Source: a virus
Strand: one strand, 5' to 3'
DNA: 52,544 bases
IMG/VR virus record: IMGVR_UViG_3300021076_000027
Location: 1 to 52,544 of that record
The notes beneath the pieces were generated by a model. It saw only the letters and a program-made list of their open reading frames with translations, made no database searches and was not told the origin of the DNA. This document shows, piece by piece, positions 2,329 to 31,890 of this stretch. The position numbers and the translations under genes are program-made. The number at the start of each line of letters is the position of its first letter. The first letter of the stretch is position 1.

Positions 2329-3882
2329 ATGATCTCCGGCTTCGAAATAGTCTCTACGAAGACTGCCACTCCTCGCAAGTGCGTTCACTGCCACCAGCCG
2401 ATTGTACGAGACAAGGATAATGGTGGTCTAGGATTCACATACCACCACAAGGAAACGAACCAGCAATGGGGGCCAGAGCCTTCCATCCTGGGTGACGACT
2501 CTCACTACGCAGAGCCGCATGATGGCTACTCTGCCGAGGAAATGCATAGCCGCACCGCCGCCCTGACCTTGACCGCCAAGGAGGTCGGCTACTACGTCGT
2601 CTCCCGCAACGGTGTCCCGATCTCCGGCCCCTACGCCACCCGCAGCGATGCAGCCCCGAACATGATCGAGCAGCGTGGCGCCGCCGTCATGTTCATCGGC
2701 CCCGGCAACAGCGCCGAGTGGGACTCCCTCAAGGCCAAGACCTTCCCGGTTGGCTCGAACACCGTCAACGGTTCTAAGCAGGATCGGGACTGGGATGACG
2801 ATGAGGACCCATGGGCAGGCGAGCAACACACCGCATCATCTTACGGTCAGCCCCAACCCGCAGCCAATCGTGCACATAAGTTCGTAGAAGACCCAAGATG
2901 GGGCGATGAGTCTAGCTGCGTTAGGTGTGGGCAGCCGAAGGGTGATGTATCTCACACCGACCGTGCACAGGCCACTACCGCTGGTTCGATGCAGGAGCGC
3001 TACATCGATGGCCAGCGCCTTGCTAGCCTCCGCCACACCGCAGAGGACCAGGCGTACTGCCGTGGCTGCGGACTCTTCGGCGCCCCGACGCACGGTAGCC
3101 TCTGCTGGCAGTGCAAGGAGAAGCGCTCGAATGGCCAGCCGATCGAGTGGCGCCGCACCGACAAGCCGAAGCCCCGCAACCACAAGGCCTCCCTCGAAGC
3201 CCTAGCATGGGGACCCGACCAGCACAACCCCGAGGTCGGTCTCGACTTCCACGAGTTCCCTGAGGACCCGGAGTACATCGACCCGCACAGCGAGGACGAG
3301 ATCTACGACGACGATGACGAAGAAGAGTGGGATGTTCCGCAGCGCTGGGAAGCTGCCCGTCGCCACAAGTTCGTTGAGGACAAGAACTGGGGCGACGAGA
3401 GTAGCTGCATGACGTGCGGCAAGCCGAAGGGTGACAACAGTCACACCGATCGTGCACAGGCCACCAGCTTGCTCGAAGAGCGCTACGCTACCGTCCGTCG
3501 ACTGAGCAGCCTCCGCCACTTCGCTGAGGATGAGGACGAACTCGGCTACGAGAAGCAGCCGAAGGGCCTCGGAGATCAGGTCGACACTGGCATGGCTCCG
3601 TCGTCCGAGATCCAAGACCCGAACCCGCTAGCCGGTCAGGACTTGGAGCGTGTACCCCGCAACCTCGCAGAGGCCGCTCGCATGTACGCTGCCTGGGATT
3701 GCGAGACCGGAGGTCCGTGCAACTGGACTCCTGGTCGAGGATCATGCCCGCTCTGTGGGCAGTACCCGGAAGACAACCCCGACTACCCGCAGGACACTCC
3801 CCATGACCAACTCGATGACCCGTGGAACGGTCAAGAGAATCCTCTCGGAAGAGGTTGGGGCGACCCGCCCCTCGGATACTAG
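2329..3882 (+). CDS. zinc-ribbon repeat protein, probable virion/head component
   Basis: A 517-residue acidic, linker-rich protein. Start at ATG 2329 is supported by AAAGGA about 10 nt upstream. It begins with a CVHC ribbon, then holds two copies of a ~60-residue module. Each copy starts HKFVED, continues WGDESSC and CGxPKGD, then SHTDRAQAT, and ends in a basic helix with SLRHxAED (around residues 182-245 and 346-400). A further CRGC/CWQC ribbon lies between them and a CNW/CPLC ribbon near the end. No enzymatic motif is visible. It opens the head block ahead of the portal, and the SLRHxAED junctions resemble the SKTA-type junctions of the neighbouring proteins. A virion role is inference. Confidence 0.7.
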   Translation: MISGFEIVSTKTATPRKCVHCHQPIVRDKDNGGLGFTYHHKETNQQWGPEPSILGDDSHYAEPHDGYSAEEMHSRTAALTLTAKEVGYYVVSRNGVPISGPYATRSDAAPNMIEQRGAAVMFIGPGNSAEWDSLKAKTFPVGSNTVNGSKQDRDWDDDEDPWAGEQHTASSYGQPQPAANRAHKFVEDPRWGDESSCVRCGQPKGDVSHTDRAQATTAGSMQERYIDGQRLASLRHTAEDQAYCRGCGLFGAPTHGSLCWQCKEKRSNGQPIEWRRTDKPKPRNHKASLEALAWGPDQHNPEVGLDFHEFPEDPEYIDPHSEDEIYDDDDEEEWDVPQRWEAARRHKFVEDKNWGDESSCMTCGKPKGDNSHTDRAQATSLLEERYATVRRLSSLRHFAEDEDELGYEKQPKGLGDQVDTGMAPSSEIQDPNPLAGQDLERVPRNLAEAARMYAAWDCETGGPCNWTPGRGSCPLCGQYPEDNPDYPQDTPHDQLDDPWNGQENPLGRGWGDPPLGY

Positions 3883-3885
3883 AAT
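3880..3885 (+). promoter_or_regulatory. -10 element of HNH gene overlapping host stop codon
   Basis: TAGAAT lies 7 nt before ATG 3893. Its first three bases are the TAG stop of the preceding gene. Predicted transcription start is at or next to the ATG, so the transcript would be leaderless. Confidence 0.6.
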
Positions 3886-3892
3886 GGACTCT

Positions 3893-4474
3893 ATGAGACA
3901 TTGCGGTCAAGGACACGAGATGAAGCGGGGCAAGAATCGCTGGATCTGTCCACCTTGTCTAGCTGAGGCTCGGGATCGCCATCGTACCTTGAATCCTGGT
4001 CAGGATGCGGAGCAGCAGAAGGCTCGGTACTGGGAGAATCACGACGCAACCCTGGCAAGCATCCGAGATTACCGACGTAAGGGACGAGGACACGTGAACG
4101 ATGTCGCTCGGGCTTGGGCCAGGGCGAATAGTGCACATATCATGGAACTGCGTCGTCAGCGCCATGAAGCAGATGAAGCCAAGACATATAGGATCGCCCA
4201 AAGAGTTTGGGAGAACCGCAGGCGAGCGTTGGAAGTCAGCGCCGCAGGCGAATGTAGTAAGGAACAGTGGAAGGCACGAGTTGAGTTCTACGGAGGCCAA
4301 TGTTGGTTGCAGCTTGAGGGTTGTACTGGCGAGGCCGATACGATGGATCACGTCATCCCGCTCTCACGGGGCGGTTCTAACTGGCCATCTAACCTACGAC
4401 CAGCGTGTAAGTACTGCAACAGTTCTAAAAAAGACAAGTCCCCATGGGATCTACTAACAAAGGTAGCAGCATGA
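3893..4474 (+). CDS. HNH homing endonuclease
   Basis: A 193-residue free-standing HNH enzyme. An N-terminal CxxGH...CxxC finger (residues 4-28) precedes a basic helical spacer. The HNH domain follows at about 145-185: CWL, then DHVIPLSRGG, then NLRPACKYCN, with His of DHV, the Asn and the closing CxxCN. An in-frame ATG also exists at 3884, but the -10 at 3880-3885 favours 3893. The gene ends with an ATGA overlap into the next structural gene. It is more AT-rich than its neighbours, as expected for an inserted gene. Confidence 0.88.
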   Translation: MRHCGQGHEMKRGKNRWICPPCLAEARDRHRTLNPGQDAEQQKARYWENHDATLASIRDYRRKGRGHVNDVARAWARANSAHIMELRRQRHEADEAKTYRIAQRVWENRRRALEVSAAGECSKEQWKARVEFYGGQCWLQLEGCTGEADTMDHVIPLSRGGSNWPSNLRPACKYCNSSKKDKSPWDLLTKVAA

Positions 4475-7083
4475 GTAATCATACCGAGGCCGAGCTTCTA
4501 GAGGCTATGGCACATGCCACATTGCCGGAACAGCGTCGGATCTCAGCCGAGCTAGATGACTTGCGGGCTATTGCAGCTTTCAACAAGGTAGCCGATGCGG
4601 AGAATGATCTGGCGAATGCGATCATTGAAGATCATCTCACTCCTGTGCTCGTACATGGGTTCCACTCGACTGCTACCGACTGGCTGGACGAGCAGGTTCC
4701 CGACTACACCACCGCCGACCTCCACACGATCGGTACCACCATGCGAGCCGAGGCTTCCGTGTGGTTCTCGTCCGTCCCCGAGGGCGTCAAGGCCAACAAG
4801 TCCGAGCTTCGTGAGCAGGCCCGAGGGATCGCTCGTCGCCTCGGTAGCCAGTACGGACAGGTCGCCAACCAGGCTGCCGACATCTTCTTGGAGTACGTGA
4901 GCCGCCTCGTCGTGGCTGACGGTACCGACATCGCTGGCGACTCTTCCGCAGCCGGTCCGACCGGTCGAGAGGGTGGCGAGGACTGGTCCGCTGGTGCGCC
5001 GACCCTCCCCGTCGCTGACGGCTCGACCGCTCCCGAGGATGACGCCGAGGGCCTCAACGCCCCTGACCCGTCTGTCTCTGGCCCGGCGCCGGACTCTCCG
5101 TCCGACTCTGCTCCCACGCCGACCCGATCGCTCCCCGAGGAAGACACCCACAACAACCCCGGCGATGCCGCAGCTACCGGCGAGATCCCGCCTGCGACCG
5201 CCTTCCTCTCTGCTCAGCAGCGTGCCAATCTTCAGTACCTCGGTACTGAGGAAGGCCAGGACTTCCCGGTCCCCGGCGAGCGAGATCCCGAGCAGGACGG
5301 CGAGGCTGCCTCGTCACTCCCTGTCGGCGTGAACGTCACCGACGCACCCGACAGCTTCCCGAGCTTCATGCCCGACACGCCAGCCGCACCCGCTCCGTCC
5401 ACTCGTGCACCGAACGTGCAGGGGTCTCGTCGCACTGCTGGGGATGATGAGAAGAGTCGTCCATTCTACTACGATGAGGATGACAAGAAGGTGTTCTACG
5501 AGGATGGAGATGACAACCCTGAGCGTAAGCCGGGAGAACCTACCCTTTCCTCTCGACGCCAAGGTATCGCAACCGGCCCCAACCCTCAGGGTTCCTACAT
5601 CTACGCTGACCGTGACCCGTGGGCGCAGCCGGATGAGCACGAGCGTTGGCCCGAGCCAGGCGAGGGATACCCGCCGACGACCTCTGGTGACAGCCAGAAG
5701 CCGAAGCACAAGCGTTGGCCGGAGCCGGGCGAGGACTACCCGCCCACCACTTCCGGTGACAGCCAGAAGCACGACTCACGTCGCCACGAGAGCGTCTCGA
5801 CTGGCCCCAACCCTCAGGGTTCCTTCGTCTACGACCCGATTCAGGTCGAGGCCAAGGGCTACGAAGAGGGCTTCGCCTACGCACTGACGTGGAGTCCCGG
5901 CAAGCCCGTCCCGGCTGCCCTGACCTCGGCTGCAACCATCGGCAACAAGTACAACGCCGAGTACGTCACCGGCTACAAGGCTGGCGTCGGAGAAGGAATC
6001 GCTACTCTTTCCTCCGACTTCCAAGCAGCGTTCGCTTCTGCGCACAAGCAGCAGGTGCTCTCGACTCGTCACGAGTCCGTGAAGCGAGAGGCTCATCCCT
6101 TCAAGGCAGGCACAGGCGTCTGCACGGAGAAGGGTGTCGAGGGCGAAGGCGTCGAGCCGCATTGCTACTGGTGCAACGAGCACTGGAACCACCCGAACCA
6201 CAAGGCCAGCGAGGTCGAGAAGAACCGCAAGATGTGGGCCAGCAAGACTGCTGACGCCAACACCCGCCAGTTCGATAAGCTCGATCAGGAAGTCGCCTTC
6301 CCGTTCACGTGGAGCACCGACTCCTCTGGTGGCGGTAAGGGCGCAGCCGACGTGGCCAACGTCCCGACGCCTGGGAGCCAGGTAGCCAACTACCCGCAGC
6401 CCGGTAGCGGTTCGCAGGAGCCTGCTGTCGGGACCGAGGTAACGGCCACTGAGCCTGTACTCGACACTGAGGAGGACGTTCCTCAGGTCGTCGCCAATGC
6501 GAGAAGGCTAGCGGCTGCCCAACGTGCCGTTGCGAGCCGCCTGGGTTTTAGACGACGAACGGCTGAGTACGAAGACAACGATGGTCTTCGTCCCGTCATC
6601 GACATCTATGATGAGGCTCTCTACGAGGCCCTATATCGTGGTCTGCCGATGGAAGAGGCTGAGCGCTTCGCTGAGCAGGTGGTCAACCGCACTGCTTCGA
6701 AGACGGCTGAGCAGTTCATCATCAAGGACTGGATGGGCAAGACCCTCTTCGATGGTCAGGAGTTCCCTTCGTTCGAAGACGGATGGGACCATATCTACAC
6801 CACCGATCCTCAGACCGATGACGATGAGCACTACTACGACGACTACTACGTCGAGCCAAAGACTGCATCACGTACCGCTGGCGAGTACGGTGACACCCGT
6901 CCTCACCAGGAAGACTGGCGCAAGGAGCTAACTGTACTCCGAGCAGAGACTCAGGACTGCCGCCACTGCAAGTCTGCACAGACTCGCACCGGTAACCCGG
7001 AAGCCATCTGCGGTCCGCACCGTGACAAGATCAACTTGCGTTATCGCACCCACCCTGCCAGCGAAACCTACTGGGCCTCGTAA
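4471..7083 (+). CDS. large modular head-region protein with disordered linkers
   Basis: An 870-residue protein coupled by ATGA to the HNH gene. It has a helical N-terminal ~150 residues, then a long Pro/Asp/Ser-rich stretch. Two WPEPGExYPPTTSGDSQK repeats follow, flanked by two TGPNPQGS blocks. Next come a glycine-rich middle section, a C-x-HCYWCNEHWNHPNH zinc site, and C-terminal modules separated by basic junctions (GSRRTAG near 5424, NRTASKTA near 6685, KTASRTAG near 6856), ending in a CRHC/CGPH ribbon. No catalytic motif is recognised. Its place in the portal operon and shared junction motif suggest a virion protein that is processed. That function is inference. Confidence 0.7.
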   Translation: MSNHTEAELLEAMAHATLPEQRRISAELDDLRAIAAFNKVADAENDLANAIIEDHLTPVLVHGFHSTATDWLDEQVPDYTTADLHTIGTTMRAEASVWFSSVPEGVKANKSELREQARGIARRLGSQYGQVANQAADIFLEYVSRLVVADGTDIAGDSSAAGPTGREGGEDWSAGAPTLPVADGSTAPEDDAEGLNAPDPSVSGPAPDSPSDSAPTPTRSLPEEDTHNNPGDAAATGEIPPATAFLSAQQRANLQYLGTEEGQDFPVPGERDPEQDGEAASSLPVGVNVTDAPDSFPSFMPDTPAAPAPSTRAPNVQGSRRTAGDDEKSRPFYYDEDDKKVFYEDGDDNPERKPGEPTLSSRRQGIATGPNPQGSYIYADRDPWAQPDEHERWPEPGEGYPPTTSGDSQKPKHKRWPEPGEDYPPTTSGDSQKHDSRRHESVSTGPNPQGSFVYDPIQVEAKGYEEGFAYALTWSPGKPVPAALTSAATIGNKYNAEYVTGYKAGVGEGIATLSSDFQAAFASAHKQQVLSTRHESVKREAHPFKAGTGVCTEKGVEGEGVEPHCYWCNEHWNHPNHKASEVEKNRKMWASKTADANTRQFDKLDQEVAFPFTWSTDSSGGGKGAADVANVPTPGSQVANYPQPGSGSQEPAVGTEVTATEPVLDTEEDVPQVVANARRLAAAQRAVASRLGFRRRTAEYEDNDGLRPVIDIYDEALYEALYRGLPMEEAERFAEQVVNRTASKTAEQFIIKDWMGKTLFDGQEFPSFEDGWDHIYTTDPQTDDDEHYYDDYYVEPKTASRTAGEYGDTRPHQEDWRKELTVLRAETQDCRHCKSAQTRTGNPEAICGPHRDKINLRYRTHPASETYWAS

Positions 7084-25454: not shown

Positions 25455-26054
25455 ATGACCACAAACTTGTTGGAGAAGTTCAACTCCATCAAGGCCCAGT
25501 CCGACGCTCCTACGGCGCCCACTCCGGCCCCCGCCGCCTCAACTCCCGCCGTGCGTGGCGGCAACGTCAAGCCCAACCGCTATGGCGGCAAGTGCGAGAA
25601 GTGCCGTAGCTGGGTCGAGCCGGGTGCAGGGTCCTTCCGCAAGGGCGACACCGGCTGGATCGTCTTCCATGTCGAGTGCCCCGAGGCCGTTCCCTTCCGC
25701 ATCACCTCCACCGATCAGGCGGTGCCCGATGAGGGCCTCTACGTGCTGGATGATGAGCGGATCGTCAAGATCAAGAGTAACAAGGCAGGGACGGGTCGCT
25801 ACGCAAGCGTGTGGGTCGAGATCGGTGGGCATCGTCTCACTGAGGCTGGCGAGTACGTAAACGGTGAGTGGGAGTACGCTCCCGCACTGCGATCCTTCTG
25901 CAAGCCCGAGCGCCGCATGACGATCGAGCAGGCCAAGGCGTTCGGTGTCCTCTACGGCAAGTGTGCCAAGTGTGGGCGCCACCTGAGTGATGCTGAGTCA
26001 GTGGAGCGGGGTATCGGTCCCGTGTGCTTGAAGAGTTTCAGTGCCGTTGCTTGA
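25455..26054 (+). CDS. DUF6011-like zinc protein
   Basis: 199 residues. A Pro/Ala-rich N-terminal linker is followed by a CEKCRSWV...HVEC zinc site (residues ~50-76). A beta-rich middle precedes a C-terminal CAKCGRHLSDAESVERGIGPVC, which matches the DUF6011 pattern (CGRxLxDxxSxxxGIGPxC) common in actinophages. It is a nucleic-acid-type zinc protein of unknown role. It has its own leaderless promoter and is followed by an overlapping endonuclease VII gene. Confidence 0.78.
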   Translation: MTTNLLEKFNSIKAQSDAPTAPTPAPAASTPAVRGGNVKPNRYGGKCEKCRSWVEPGAGSFRKGDTGWIVFHVECPEAVPFRITSTDQAVPDEGLYVLDDERIVKIKSNKAGTGRYASVWVEIGGHRLTEAGEYVNGEWEYAPALRSFCKPERRMTIEQAKAFGVLYGKCAKCGRHLSDAESVERGIGPVCLKSFSAVA

Positions 26055-26499
26055 GAAGTGGTGTAATGGCTGCAAGCGGACTCTTCCCGAGTCCGCTTTC
26101 AGTCGTCACAAGAGTGGAGATCGCCAAGGGAGCCTGCGTGCTCGGTGCAAGGAATGCGATATTGTCGCTGCGAAGAAGTGGCAGCGGGCTAACCGGGACC
26201 GTATGCTGGCTCAGAAGACAGCCTACCGAGCCGCCCATCCAGAAGAGACTCGTCGGTATCAGCGCAGGAAGAACTGGCGAGTGATGGGTCTTGACCCGGA
26301 TGAGGTAGAGTCCTTACTTGAACGGAATGAGGGTCGGTGTATGATCTGCGGAGTCCAAGAAAAGCTTGTGCCCGATCATGACCACGAGACTCTAGAGCTT
26401 CGTGGGGTATTGTGTCACTGGTGTAACACCGGTCTTGGGATGTTCCGAGATGATCCATCCTCTCTGGCTGCTGCCATCGTCTATCTGAAAGGCGCCTGA
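26041..26499 (+). CDS. endonuclease VII-type HNH nuclease
   Basis: 152 residues. An N-terminal CNGCKRTLPESAF...CKEC finger is followed by a basic helix. The core is CMICGVQEKLVPDHDHETLELRGVLCHWCNTGLGMFRDDP, the recombination endonuclease VII signature (CxxC, DHDH, RGxxCxxCN, LGxxxD). Members resolve branched DNA or act as homing enzymes; the free-standing position and finger favour homing. A GTG at 26041 overlaps the previous gene by 14 bases; TTG 26047 is an alternative. Unlike most endonuclease genes here, no clear -10 is visible. Confidence 0.82.
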   Translation: MPLLEKWCNGCKRTLPESAFSRHKSGDRQGSLRARCKECDIVAAKKWQRANRDRMLAQKTAYRAAHPEETRRYQRRKNWRVMGLDPDEVESLLERNEGRCMICGVQEKLVPDHDHETLELRGVLCHWCNTGLGMFRDDPSSLAAAIVYLKGA

Positions 26500-26699: not shown

Positions 26700-26706
26700 C
26701 TCTGAA

Positions 26707-26721
26707 ACCACCTAAGAGGTG
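26707..26721 (+). repeat. start-associated palindromic element, copy 4
   Basis: ACCACCTAAGAGGTG, with a 5-bp CACCT/AGGTG stem and loop AAG, in the leader of the protease gene. Confidence 0.65.
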
Positions 26722-26750
26722 TAGCACGGGTGAAGGAGGTGAACGTATCT

Positions 26751-26807
26751 GTGACTCCGCCTCGGCTTTGGCCGGGGCGCTGTCACGAGCGCTCTGAGTC
26801 CACCTAA
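26751..26807 (+). CDS. putative 18-residue leader peptide before the protease gene
   Basis: GTG 26751 is preceded by GGAGGTGA 8 nt upstream, one of the strongest ribosome sites in the window. It encodes an 18-residue Pro/Arg-rich peptide whose TAA lies inside the second palindromic element, 8 nt before the protease ATG. The coding segment also contains a GTGAC...GTCAC stem (26751-26785). It may be a coupling or attenuating leader. Expression is unproven. Confidence 0.4.
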   Translation: MTPPRLWPGRCHERSEST

Positions 26808-26813
26808 GTGGTG
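26799..26813 (+). repeat. start-associated palindromic element, copy 5
   Basis: TCCACCTAAGTGGTG, with a CACC/GGTG stem, ends 2 nt before the protease ATG at 26816. Confidence 0.65.
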
Positions 26814-26815
26814 AG

Positions 26816-29800
26816 ATGAGCATCCTCAAGACTACCTCCTTCCAGATCTTGAGCGCTTCGATGGCTGGTCAGTCGGAACGCACGTTCAAGACCGCTCACC
26901 GGGCCGAGTTCGATCACGTCGAGCGCCGACCCGGCTACCTGTACGTCCGTTCCCGAGCCATCTCCTCTCGCATCAACGAGAACTTCGACGGCTTCGACGC
27001 TGACGAGATCGCCAAGGGCTACCAGACGTTCATGGGCAAGCCCGTGTTCGTCTCGCACCACAACTCGAACCACCGACGTGCCCGAGGCGCCATTGTCGCC
27101 GTGGCGCTCCACGAGGACCACCTAGCTACCGGCGAGCCGGATACCTGGGTAGAGGTTCTCATGGAGGTCGATGCGGTCAACTTCCCGAAGCTGGCCCAGG
27201 CCATCATCGCCGGAGAAGTCGCACGCACCTCGATGGGTTGCGACGTAGCCTACTCGTCCTGCACCTTCTGCGGCAACAAGGCCTACACCGAGGCCGAGTA
27301 TTGCAAGCACATCCCCCGCCTCAAGGGCAAGCGCATCCGTCGAGTGGACGCCAAGACCGGCGCAAGCTCGATGGTGCTCGTGGCCGAGCAGTGTTTCGGG
27401 TTGCATTTCTTTGAGAACTCCCTCCTGGTCGAGGAGCCTGCCGACCCTTCTGCTTTTTGCCTGGGCACAGATTGGGTGGATTCAGATATGACTCCACACC
27501 ATGCCAGTGCGAATAGCATGGATAGTTCCATCGCTTACGCCGAAGCGATTGCCAATATCCCTCAGCGTGAGTTGTCCACGACGAGTGCGTCCTCTCCCGA
27601 CCGCAACCTGGGGAAGCAAGTCTCGCTTGATGATGAGGACTTCTTCTTCGGTCAGCACGTGAGCAGCATTGCGTACACCGGAAGCGCTACGCCCCCGCTC
27701 CACCATGTCGGTCGAGTTGTCGGCGTTGGTACCGAGCAGCCAGTGGGCAGGATTGTGGCAGAGAGGAACATCGCAGGTATGGCGAACGACCAGTCCTTCG
27801 GGGATTGGGCCGACGATCTGCTCGTATCCCCATCTGTGGGAGCGGACGGAGCTTCGCTTAGCGTCGGACAGCGAGAAGCGTCCATAGCCCGAGTCGAAGA
27901 CACCCCCGGTCCAAAGCCAGCATTCGTCCTCACCACGGACGGCGACCTTCGACCAGTAGCGCTCAATCTCGGACATAGTGAAGCGGTCATTCCTAGCCAT
28001 GTGCCCCATCTTAGCACGTTCGAGGCAGGCTTCATCCTCACGGCTGACAGCAATGATCTCCCCGAACTGAAGATGCCACCGCCGCCGTACCGTGTGAACT
28101 GTCGCAACTGCGGCCAGCAGAGCGTGACGAACAAGAACCACCCGAAGTGCGAGTCCTGTGGCGACCTCCATGTGTCCCCCGTGCGCCGTGCATCGAAGGA
28201 AGCCGCCACCCAAGAAGAGGCCGAGCGTACCGGCCCGTGCCCTCACTGTGGTGGCAAGCTCTTCTCGAATGGCTTCCCCGGCACCTCCCCGTACTGCGGC
28301 TCGTGCCAGACCCACATCCCGCTGAAGCCCAAGGCATCGTCCTTCGGTGGCAAGCGTGTTGCTAGCCTCCACAAGCGTGCTGTCAATCAGTGCATCCGCC
28401 ACTACGAGCACGAGGTTGGACCCAATGACCTCACGTGTCCTGTATGCGAGTCCCTGATGTACTATGGGACTCCCACCACCAAGATGCCTGATGACCAATA
28501 TCTCGAATGGCTCTCCAAGCAGCCCTACGAGGCTCGTAAGCACGCCATCAACGAGACCATCGCTCCGCCCGAGGTCGACACCCTCCGTGCATCCGAGTGC
28601 CCTATCTGTGGCTCCGACGCCTACAACGGCGAGGAGTGCCCGGTGTGCATGTTCATCAAGCCGCCCGACATGTTCATGGACCCGGACCTCGAAGCTGCTC
28701 AGAATGCCGACCTCCGCCAGGATGAGGCCCAGGACGGTCTAGCCGTTGGCGACCAGGTAGGCAACGATCACCTACAGGGCCAGACCCCGGTGGGCGACGA
28801 CCTCATGGCTGCTGGCCAAGAGGGTGACCTTCAGTGCGACTCCTGTGGTGCCGTACAGCCCGGCCAGGCCTCCGCAGGGACCGACAACGCCGTCAACGGA
28901 GCACCCACTACACAGCCTACTTCACAGCCTCCTACACAGCCCGGAGCAGAGCCGCCGCCGCCCGTCAACGACGAGTCCATGCCGCTGGCTCAGGGACCGC
29001 CCGAGGCCGACGACGTGCCGCCCGCTGGCAAGGAGCTTCCGAAGCCGAAGGACGGCGAGAACGACGACGGCCAGGACGACGGCTCGAAGGCCGAGACCAA
29101 GCCGAAGGGCGACCCCGCCGACAAGGGCAAGGTCGAGTCCGACATCGATGCCGGGAAGTCCGACACCACCAAGCCGACCGAGGACGAGGCCGTCGACACC
29201 CTACAGAAGGATCTCAAGCCAGGCGACCCATGCCCGGTCTGCGACGGCAAGGGCAAGCTTCAGCCCAAGGCTGACGACAAGAAGGACGACCAGAAGGTCG
29301 AAGACAAGGATAGCAAGGACGACAAGGAGGACGGACCACCCTGGCAAAAGGGCGATAACTCCTCCAAAGAAGTGAAGGCTCAGTCGTCACTCAACCACGA
29401 CACCCCAGGAGTATCTGATATGGCAGCCCCCACCGTCAAGGTTCTAGCATCGCACCAAGCCGAGATTCGTCGCCTCAAGGCGGAGAACGCTCAGCTTCGT
29501 CGTTCCGTGAACTACATCGCCGCAGCCGTTGGCATCACCCGCTTCGCTGACGACCAGAACCCGGCAGAGCCGATCCCGCAGCCCGCAGGTGGCGCTCCGT
29601 CCGAGACCTCGGAAGAGGCCATGAACGCAGCTACTCGTGTCAACGTGCAGGAGATCGGCTCGACGCCGGTCAACGGTGTTGGCGCAGATGCGACCACCAC
29701 GGTGGATCAGGTCGGCGGCATCAATGCTGACACCCCGTACTCGATCAACACCGAGGTCACCACCCCGGTGTCTGGTACCGAGACCCGCATCCCTCTCGAC

Positions 29801-30232
29801 AAGGTTCGCACCTTGCCGGAGATCCAGTTCGGCAACCCCCTTGTGCCGGACACCGCCTTCCCTCTCGAAGGCCCCTTCGCTGAGAAGGCAACGCTAGGCA
29901 GCAAGGGCCGCACCTACGCCGCTCTTCGCCTCGCACGTCTCCGCAAGGCTGCGGGCGTCGATGAGACTGGCTCCGACGAGATCGTTGTTGCCAACGCCAT
30001 CGACACCAACGCATCGCTGAGCGACGGCGCCATTGCGCAGGAGATCGACATCCTCACGAAGGTCGTCACCGCCACGCAGGCACCGACGCCCCGCCAGGCA
30101 AGCCGTCGTCTCGTCCCGCAGTCCTCTGCTGGTGTCGAGCGCACGATCCCGTCCGTAGCAGTAGGTGAAGGTCTCACGTCATTCACGGCAGCAGCCGCAA
30201 GTGACGACGACGCATTCGCATTCTGCGACTAA
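26816..30232 (+). CDS. prohead protease fused to zinc-ribbon and scaffold regions
   Basis: 1138 residues. Residues 1-215 look like a prohead protease: GKPVFVSHHN supplies the likely catalytic His (81/82), ARTSMGCDV the Ser (139), and a CTFC...CKH zinc site follows (149-165). Residues ~216-400 come from DNA that on the other strand encodes an HNH endonuclease. Ribbons CRNCGQQ...CESCGD, CPHCGGK...CGSC and CPVCES follow, then a long acidic Pro/Lys linker and a helical C-terminus (from 29420) resembling a scaffold, with a coiled coil (VKVLASHQAEIRRLKAENAQLRR). The capsid genes follow directly. The long frame is intact, so one polyprotein is possible, cut at basic sites such as VRRASKEA. Confidence 0.75.
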   Translation: MSILKTTSFQILSASMAGQSERTFKTAHRAEFDHVERRPGYLYVRSRAISSRINENFDGFDADEIAKGYQTFMGKPVFVSHHNSNHRRARGAIVAVALHEDHLATGEPDTWVEVLMEVDAVNFPKLAQAIIAGEVARTSMGCDVAYSSCTFCGNKAYTEAEYCKHIPRLKGKRIRRVDAKTGASSMVLVAEQCFGLHFFENSLLVEEPADPSAFCLGTDWVDSDMTPHHASANSMDSSIAYAEAIANIPQRELSTTSASSPDRNLGKQVSLDDEDFFFGQHVSSIAYTGSATPPLHHVGRVVGVGTEQPVGRIVAERNIAGMANDQSFGDWADDLLVSPSVGADGASLSVGQREASIARVEDTPGPKPAFVLTTDGDLRPVALNLGHSEAVIPSHVPHLSTFEAGFILTADSNDLPELKMPPPPYRVNCRNCGQQSVTNKNHPKCESCGDLHVSPVRRASKEAATQEEAERTGPCPHCGGKLFSNGFPGTSPYCGSCQTHIPLKPKASSFGGKRVASLHKRAVNQCIRHYEHEVGPNDLTCPVCESLMYYGTPTTKMPDDQYLEWLSKQPYEARKHAINETIAPPEVDTLRASECPICGSDAYNGEECPVCMFIKPPDMFMDPDLEAAQNADLRQDEAQDGLAVGDQVGNDHLQGQTPVGDDLMAAGQEGDLQCDSCGAVQPGQASAGTDNAVNGAPTTQPTSQPPTQPGAEPPPPVNDESMPLAQGPPEADDVPPAGKELPKPKDGENDDGQDDGSKAETKPKGDPADKGKVESDIDAGKSDTTKPTEDEAVDTLQKDLKPGDPCPVCDGKGKLQPKADDKKDDQKVEDKDSKDDKEDGPPWQKGDNSSKEVKAQSSLNHDTPGVSDMAAPTVKVLASHQAEIRRLKAENAQLRRSVNYIAAAVGITRFADDQNPAEPIPQPAGGAPSETSEEAMNAATRVNVQEIGSTPVNGVGADATTTVDQVGGINADTPYSINTEVTTPVSGTETRIPLDKVRTLPEIQFGNPLVPDTAFPLEGPFAEKATLGSKGRTYAALRLARLRKAAGVDETGSDEIVVANAIDTNASLSDGAIAQEIDILTKVVTATQAPTPRQASRRLVPQSSAGVERTIPSVAVGEGLTSFTAAAASDDDAFAFCD
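27482..28000 (-). CDS. HNH homing endonuclease nested antisense in the protease gene
   Basis: 172 residues. Core: CWLWTGGVFDSGYGRF, RSHRWGYEQIVGPIPEG, VRHTCDVPLCHNPAHWLLGTNADNSTDM, the HNH_3-type pattern with His, Asn and His. A C-terminal helix-turn-helix (TLRDIGNRFGVSDGTIHAIRTG) probably recognises DNA. The ATG at 28000 is chosen from the TGCTAAGAT extended -10 placed 7 nt upstream. The opposite strand remains open in the protease frame throughout, so the insertion adds ~185 codons to that protein instead of ending it. Confidence 0.87.
   Translation of the reverse strand: MARNDRFTMSEIERYWSKVAVRGEDECWLWTGGVFDSGYGRFSLSDAKRSSVRSHRWGYEQIVGPIPEGLVVRHTCDVPLCHNPAHWLLGTNADNSTDMVERGRSASGVRNAAHVLTEEEVLIIKRDLLPQVAVGRGRTRRGQLTLRDIGNRFGVSDGTIHAIRTGMVWSHI
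28008..28013 (-). promoter_or_regulatory. extended -10 promoter of antisense HNH gene
   Basis: Reverse strand TGCTAAGAT (TGn extension plus TAAGAT), 7 nt before the ATG at 28000; leaderless transcript predicted. Confidence 0.7.
29360..29378 (+). repeat. start-associated palindromic element, copy 6
   Basis: TCCTCCAAAGAAGTG plus AAGG inside the protease/scaffold gene, 41 nt before the internal ATG at 29420. Its presence before an internal start mirrors the copies before ordinary gene starts. Confidence 0.6.
29420..30232 (+). CDS. nested scaffold protein (internal start in the protease gene)
   Basis: An in-frame ATG with AGGAG 8 nt upstream would give a 270-residue scaffold from the 3' end of the protease gene, as lambda Nu3 is nested in C. 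The product starts MAAPTVKV and has an immediate coiled coil (IRRLKAENAQLRRSV). Ala/Thr/Pro-rich regions and a helical C-terminal part (ALRLARLRKAAGVDE, EIDILTKVV) follow, ending in an acidic, aromatic tail, typical of scaffolds that grip the capsid protein. A repeat copy upstream supports a real start. It lies directly before the decoration and capsid genes. Confidence 0.55.
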   Translation: MAAPTVKVLASHQAEIRRLKAENAQLRRSVNYIAAAVGITRFADDQNPAEPIPQPAGGAPSETSEEAMNAATRVNVQEIGSTPVNGVGADATTTVDQVGGINADTPYSINTEVTTPVSGTETRIPLDKVRTLPEIQFGNPLVPDTAFPLEGPFAEKATLGSKGRTYAALRLARLRKAAGVDETGSDEIVVANAIDTNASLSDGAIAQEIDILTKVVTATQAPTPRQASRRLVPQSSAGVERTIPSVAVGEGLTSFTAAAASDDDAFAFCD

Positions 30233-30897: not shown

Positions 30898-31890
30898 ATG
30901 TCATCCCTCACCGTTGCAGGTGGCCTCAAGCCACGAGTAGCTCGCAAGTCTGACGACTACGTGACCGAGATCCTCGCCCGTCGAGGTACCCCGGACGGCT
31001 CGTCACGCATGACGCACGAGTCCAAGGTCAAGAAGATGGCTCTCATCCTTCAGGATGAGGTCAACGGCATCCGTCGCCTCGGCGTCGGCATGATCGGCCC
31101 GATCCAGTTGAAGCTTCGATACCAGGGTATCGTCCGCAACGTCCTCGTGGAAGACCCGGTAACGCCGGGTACTCCGGTCGAGTACGACGTGTGGGACGAC
31201 CTCGGTCAGGCCTACATCATGAACGGCACCGATGGTGAAGTTCGTGTGACGCCGTTCGAAGGCAAGCGAGTTCCGATCTTCTTCTTCCGCATCGCCAGCC
31301 GCCCGGCTGTCCGTAAGGAAGACCTGTTCTACCTCCGCATCAACGTGGTCGAGCAGGCTCAGGACGAGACCAAGCAGGCCATCATGAAGCAGGAGGACAG
31401 CCGCCTCATCGTCCTCCTACAGGCTGCCGAGAACGACTACGCCACCCGACCCGATCACGTCATCACGCCTTACCACAACGTGACCGAGACGAGCGGCTAC
31501 TTCACCCCGCAGTCGTTCTACACCGCCGTCGCACAGACGGACATGCACGAGATCGTCTCCGGTCGAGTCCTGGTCAACCCGCTTGACTACCGTGACTTCT
31601 TCCGCTGGGACATCAACACGACCGGTTGGGCCTTCAAGGACCGAGTTGTCGCTGGTGAGCAGATCACGACCTACGGCGAGTTCCAGATCCAGCGCTCGAT
31701 CATGCAGACGCAGGGCGAGATGTTCCTGCTCCCGAACCCCGACTTCCTCGGTGTGTTCCCCGTCCTGTACTCGCTCGACGTGGAAGAGAACCACTCGGTC
31801 GAGGACTTCTGGAAGGGCTGGGTCTTCGATGAGATGGTCTCCATGGCCGTCCTCAACCCTCGTGGCATCGCCTCGATCACCAAGTCGTAA
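30898..31890 (+). CDS. major capsid protein
   Basis: 330 residues, preceded by AGGAAAGG. It is an abundant-protein type sequence with no Cys, beginning with a basic helical N-arm (RVARKSDDYVTEILARRGT...SKVKKMALILQDEVN). Strand/helix alternation follows (ILLR-type IVLLQAAENDYATRPDHVI, VSGRVLVNPLDYRDFFRWDINTTGWAFKDRVVAGEQI, LLPNPDFLGVFPVLYSLDVEE). This is compatible with the HK97 fold of large actinophage capsids. Context (protease/scaffold, decoration protein, hairpin after the next gene) makes the call firm, though I cannot run a structure comparison. Confidence 0.8.
   Translation: MSSLTVAGGLKPRVARKSDDYVTEILARRGTPDGSSRMTHESKVKKMALILQDEVNGIRRLGVGMIGPIQLKLRYQGIVRNVLVEDPVTPGTPVEYDVWDDLGQAYIMNGTDGEVRVTPFEGKRVPIFFFRIASRPAVRKEDLFYLRINVVEQAQDETKQAIMKQEDSRLIVLLQAAENDYATRPDHVITPYHNVTETSGYFTPQSFYTAVAQTDMHEIVSGRVLVNPLDYRDFFRWDINTTGWAFKDRVVAGEQITTYGEFQIQRSIMQTQGEMFLLPNPDFLGVFPVLYSLDVEENHSVEDFWKGWVFDEMVSMAVLNPRGIASITKS

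Follow-up and report, generated by a model that had tools for sequence, protein, structure and literature searches.

Background

The question raised by this locus is how a gene for an HNH endonuclease can lie wholly inside, and antisense to, a phage head protease gene whose reading frame stays open. The phage genes that homing genes target are conserved ones, critical to function (PMC2988022). A sequence-only reading of the window (the whole 52,544-nucleotide stretch analysed, IMG/VR virus record IMGVR_UViG_3300021076_000027) had proposed a complete reverse-strand HNH gene with its own promoter in a linker just behind the protease domain, and had described the arrangement as rare and as neither an intein nor an obvious intron. 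In this study we compare the locus with its relatives among viral contigs. The comparison makes it very probable, on sequence evidence, that a mobile HNH homing-endonuclease gene is nested antisense in the linker behind the head-maturation protease domain, has its own promoter and is read through by its host gene.

Methods

Relatives were collected from IMG/VR with a protease-domain profile (A1, later A3), which returned more than 100 relatives, and with a profile of the HNH protein (A2), which returned 80 HNH loci. Scans of viral contigs with single sequences yielded few relatives, the profile searches recovered more, and a scan of genome contigs found only distant HNH genes. Nested HNH genes were sought with a profile in all six frames of the DNA downstream of the protease, and an open sense frame was no precondition. 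For the sense peptide, HNH codons were redrawn in simulation among the synonymous codons used by the nested genes, and sense identity was then compared with the simulated level. Every carrier is a metagenomic contig and the evidence is computational throughout.

Results

The host gene, a protease-linker-scaffold ORF, occupies 26816..30232 on the plus strand and encodes 1138 aa (1138 codons) with no stop across the insert. Its N-terminus matches PHROG 18299, a head maturation protease (E 4.6e-18), and PHROG 2774 (E 1.4e-57), and the major head protein gene begins shortly downstream, at 30898. The protease domain (aa 1-219; 26816..27472, plus strand) ends in a conserved FFENSLLVEEPADPSA; its residues H81 and S139, which show no variation in 20 relatives, are presumably catalytic. 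Beyond the insert the ORF continues in unchanged frame at 28050..30232 (plus strand), a part homologous to positions 3422-5689 and 5751-6740 of relative L001 and containing two CxxC zinc-ribbon-like stretches, the SFGGKRVASLHK and VDTLR motifs and a scaffold-like C-terminus. The two CxxC...CxxC stretches (window 28093-28310) lie in the linker directly after the HNH insert and are missing from L001. The scaffold-like C-terminus (window 29400-30232) is fused to the protease ORF here and is a separate ORF in L001 (5751-6740) and several relatives. An endonuclease VII-type HNH gene lies directly upstream of the protease gene (window 26041-26499), and L001 has a different HNH gene in a comparable position (2821-3519).

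Among cultured phages, DNA and protein searches with the whole ORF and the HNH gene returned nothing closer than distant proteases (41%) and HNH genes below about 45% identity, mostly free-standing. The protease has its nearest cultured relatives in phages of Mycobacterium and Gordonia, so the host of the window phage is likely to be an actinobacterium.

The HNH gene is found on the minus strand at 27482..28000 (172 aa; ATG 28000-27998, TGA 27484-27482). Its product matches Pfam PF13392 (HNH_3; E 3.7e-9, 36.5 bits against a cut-off of 24.8) and PHROG HNH families down to E 2e-29, which, with the plus-strand ORF open throughout, bears out the earlier claim of a complete reverse-strand HNH gene inside the protease/scaffold ORF. 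PDB sequence searches found nothing, and the top Foldseek match in PDB, an I-HmuI type intron-encoded HNH endonuclease, was not significant (E 0.23). The minus codons stand exactly opposite the plus codons (register 0), each being the reverse complement of its partner, so that sense stops can come solely from the HNH codons TTA, CTA and TCA (Leu/Ser). At the left junction (27455..27484, plus strand) the codons FCLGTDWVD are followed by a sense TCA opposite the HNH stop; this stretch has the low-GC3 codons typical of carrier phages. The right junction, STFEAGFILTAD (28014..28049, plus strand), may hold a weak echo of AFCLGTD.

Nested HNH genes were found in seven further phages: L021 (=L087), L016 (=L089), L012 (=L096), L175 (=L088), L183, L195 (=L090) and L199 (=L091). 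In these the insertion lies 31-52 nt past conserved PADxxA codons, antisense, in register 0 and within an open sense ORF, and the HNH catalytic residues (H74, N83 and H86) are unchanged in all eight nested copies. The six-frame search downstream of the protease found no sense-direction HNH gene and no frame-broken copy. Carriers make up 8 of 80 distinct proteases, the other 72 distinct relatives being without HNH. The earlier interpretation holds with a qualification: a homing-type gene lies antisense and in frame inside a structural gene as described, but the case is not a one-off, since carriers are 10% of the sampled distinct relatives. The nested antisense homing-type gene is confirmed, at the level of sequence, as real and recurrent. 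Being related to one another, the eight genes do not count as fully independent cases; saturation of synonymous sites extends over the window, L012, L183 and L195 but not over L021, L016 and L175. Codon identity at shared residues is about random in most pairs involving the first four, which are therefore nearly independent at synonymous sites.

The insertion site had been placed directly behind the protease domain, in an apparent linker, and the relatives agree, since the protease-scaffold linker is hypervariable among them: one group has a protease gene that stops 8-11 residues past PADESA, and among the rest the linker measures 27 to more than 2000 aa. With a linker so variable in length and content behind the protease domain, about 177 extra residues appear tolerable. 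The linkers of L007-L051 and L167-L206, from the protease domain to VDTLR, are a hotspot of in-frame cargo domains, with DUF7178 in 32 of 54 linkers and also NUDIX, GNAT, Arr-ms ADP-ribosyltransferase and DUF6582, and the protease-scaffold linker product may be an internal-virion cargo polyprotein.

An extended -10 box, TAAGAT with TGC before it, lies on the minus strand at 28008..28013, 7 nt before the ATG, and is a predicted leaderless promoter; gene and box together account for the span 27482-28013 that had first drawn attention. We place the start at ATG 28000-27998 and the box at 28013-28008 because this spacing is common to the relatives: TANNNT stands exactly 7 nt before ATG or GTG in 8/8 nested HNH genes, against a baseline of 0.4% per start codon (chance of 8/8 about 2e-18, with the number of starts allowed for). 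A scan for -35/-10 consensus sequences missed this promoter. TANNNT serves as the -10 box in Mycobacterium tuberculosis, where leaderless transcripts are numerous (PMC3898074). The shared motif upholds the suggestion of a separate promoter and points to independent transcription of the HNH gene as a leaderless mRNA.

That the sense ORF runs stop-free through the insert is confirmed for the window (26816-30232) and for all eight nested cases. An open opposite frame is by itself weak evidence, and the case for something beyond chance depends on comparing nested with free-standing genes. A free-standing HNH gene might simply have dropped into a linker, its sense side being open merely through the frequency of open mirror frames in high-GC genes; free-standing HNH relatives do show an open mirror frame, in 10 of 32 (GC3 0.6-0.9) and in 9 of 21 when matched for GC3, and HNH-free linkers contain 244 out-of-frame ORFs of at least 130 aa. 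The 8/8 of the nested genes nevertheless exceeds both proportions (Fisher p 0.0006, and p 0.006 with GC3 matched), and strand and register are identical in every nested case. Neither of the remaining antisense frames is open in any of the 32 free-standing relatives. Stop-making codons account for none of 215 Leu and Ser codons in the nested genes, against 47/536 in free-standing relatives (p 1e-7) and 27/358 in the GC3-matched set (p 4e-6), and coincidence is on these counts unlikely. The carriers' own protease bodies also disfavour the critical codons (6/133), so general codon bias seems to account for some of the avoidance; it does not appear to account for all of it, 0/215 being low even against 6/133. 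Eighty out-of-frame ORFs from HNH-free linkers, taken as a control, had no Pfam or PHROG match, and long opposite-strand ORFs adjoining other HNH genes (L117, L110, L133 and others) matched no PHROG family.

Removal of the insert from mRNA or protein by a self-splicing intron or intein is very improbable. Patchy distribution and nuclease content are what such elements would also show, yet the HNH gene is antisense to the host transcript, and an open frame would be superfluous in an insert that is removed or bypassed. A search of Rfam on both strands of 26700-28700 gave no match up to E 1, hence no described intron, and the sense frame of the eight members contains no intein or other Pfam family. 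The earlier judgement that the insert is neither intein nor intron stands with these results.

The sense read-through segment of about 177 codons (27482..28013, plus strand) is stop-free, unconserved as protein and predicted to be disordered. A functional domain encoded here, with the antisense HNH frame secondary, would be in keeping with sense alignments of 48-51% identity that extend into the segment in L012, L016 and L021. These aligned relatives are all HNH-bearing, and codon bias tracks the HNH strand (GC3 0.65-0.81 in the HNH frame, 0.56-0.61 in the sense frame). Sense identity equals the simulated level in saturated pairs, such as window-L021, window-L183 and L183-L195, and exceeds it mainly in closer pairs, which retain common codons by descent. 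With the sense alignment of eight sequences as input, AlphaFold2 gave pLDDT of about 25 at residues 215-410, and the values for the protease body are mostly 40-74. The HNH catalytic residues are invariant, and the sense frame has no family match. The segment as a conserved domain was accordingly dropped, and we regard a functional sense domain as hardly credible; a case in which the same stretch (about 185 codons in the first estimate) is conserved as protein in the lack of an HNH frame was sought and not found. Read-through appears to be under selection and the peptide sequence apparently is not, the segment being probably held open and otherwise free in sequence.

Each carrier adjoins non-carriers on the protease tree, with 8 changes over 8 rows, and the test rejects a tree that unites the carriers in one clade (p-AU 3.9e-5). 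Such scatter is expected of a mobile gene, and the distribution, with 8/80 proteases occupied, is the patchy one at a conserved site that is looked for in homing genes. Were the insert instead the remnant of one ancient insertion, inherited vertically with many losses and immobile today, related HNH proteins would be no surprise: 7/8 fall in one clade, the test does not reject a common origin for all eight (p-AU 0.83), and HNH and protease identities are weakly correlated (r 0.49). Set against this are the nearest relatives of all carriers, which lack HNH, and the HNH proteins of the window and L183, which are closer (67%) than their proteases (64%). We give vertical inheritance a small but appreciable probability. 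The HNH of L012 is closer to a free-standing gene, L117 (53%).

Target codons (xPDARGL-like) are directly repeated on both flanks in L021, L016 and L175 only; the window itself has no clean target repeat. In L021 the right copy is identical at about 40 of 50 nt to the empty relative L017, and the left copy is recoded. GC3 of the last codons of the protease part is lower in carriers (p 1.4e-4). Flank repeats, recoded left target and GC3 drop are consistent with a break-repair insertion that brought in a recoded target. Codon identity along the protease drops clearly near the junction only in L195, and in L016 against L015, and the carriers do not resemble one another more closely there, so a shared conversion tract was not found.

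Discussion

The nested, mobile HNH gene may operate as follows. It would be transcribed on the minus strand from its own leaderless promoter, as the motif suggests, and the encoded enzyme would cleave HNH-free protease genes close to the site of insertion; repair off the carrier would then copy the HNH gene into the cut gene. Nuclease activity, homing and translation of the read-through are in this scheme inferred. Splicing would be unnecessary. Within a disordered, length-tolerant linker, the gene would occupy the sole antisense register able to stay open and avoid stop-making Leu and Ser codons, and ribosomes could then cross about 177 passive codons of the polyprotein. What the sequences carry of this is the position, the register, the stop avoidance, the scattered distribution, the promoter motif and, in three cases, the target repeats.

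The nearest known case is the ShiLan domain, a hidden HNH in an actinophage DNA methylase (PMC11855218, PMC9957025). ShiLan and the window share an HNH gene within a phage coding sequence whose host frame is open with no intron or intein, a patchy distribution, repeated flank residues, a proposed leaderless start and an actinophage setting. The ShiLan HNH lies on the same strand in another frame of a methylase gene, whereas the nested HNH described here lies antisense, codon on codon, in a head protease gene and has a promoter box to itself; the host frame is open with no splicing element. The ShiLan papers (PMC11855218, PMC9957025) do not mention antisense. Our literature search, whose coverage excludes most subscription journals and all preprints, found no antisense codon-on-codon HNH that combines a promoter box of its own with measured avoidance of stops. 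The same-strand hidden HNH is already published, and the antisense form appears to be a new variant of it.

Free-standing phage HNH homing endonucleases (HNH_3; T4 mob genes; T7-like gp7.7) resemble the window gene in being HNH endonuclease genes, here with a match to the HNH_3 profile, in having a C-terminal helix-turn-helix-like part and in being mobile with no intron. They lie between genes or interrupt them and typically cleave at distant sites, whereas the window HNH is wholly inside an open ORF. Endonucleases of the I-HmuI type are intron-borne, and the window HNH has no intron.

We propose, tentatively and aware that the claim may well prove too broad, a class of homing gene adapted to residence opposite the coding strand of a host gene, with a single register and orientation, its own leaderless promoter, stop-free codon choice and a recoded target copy, that invades an essential gene with no need of splicing. 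Mirror-codon overlap together with a measurable stop-avoidance signature is a sequence test applicable to all phage genomes, and annotation that drops antisense overlaps would overlook such nested genes. The locus is a natural case in which one strand would be selected for its sequence and the opposite strand only for openness. For phages it would represent a third route, besides introns and inteins, by which a homing gene can reside inside a needed gene: the host reads through it antisense.
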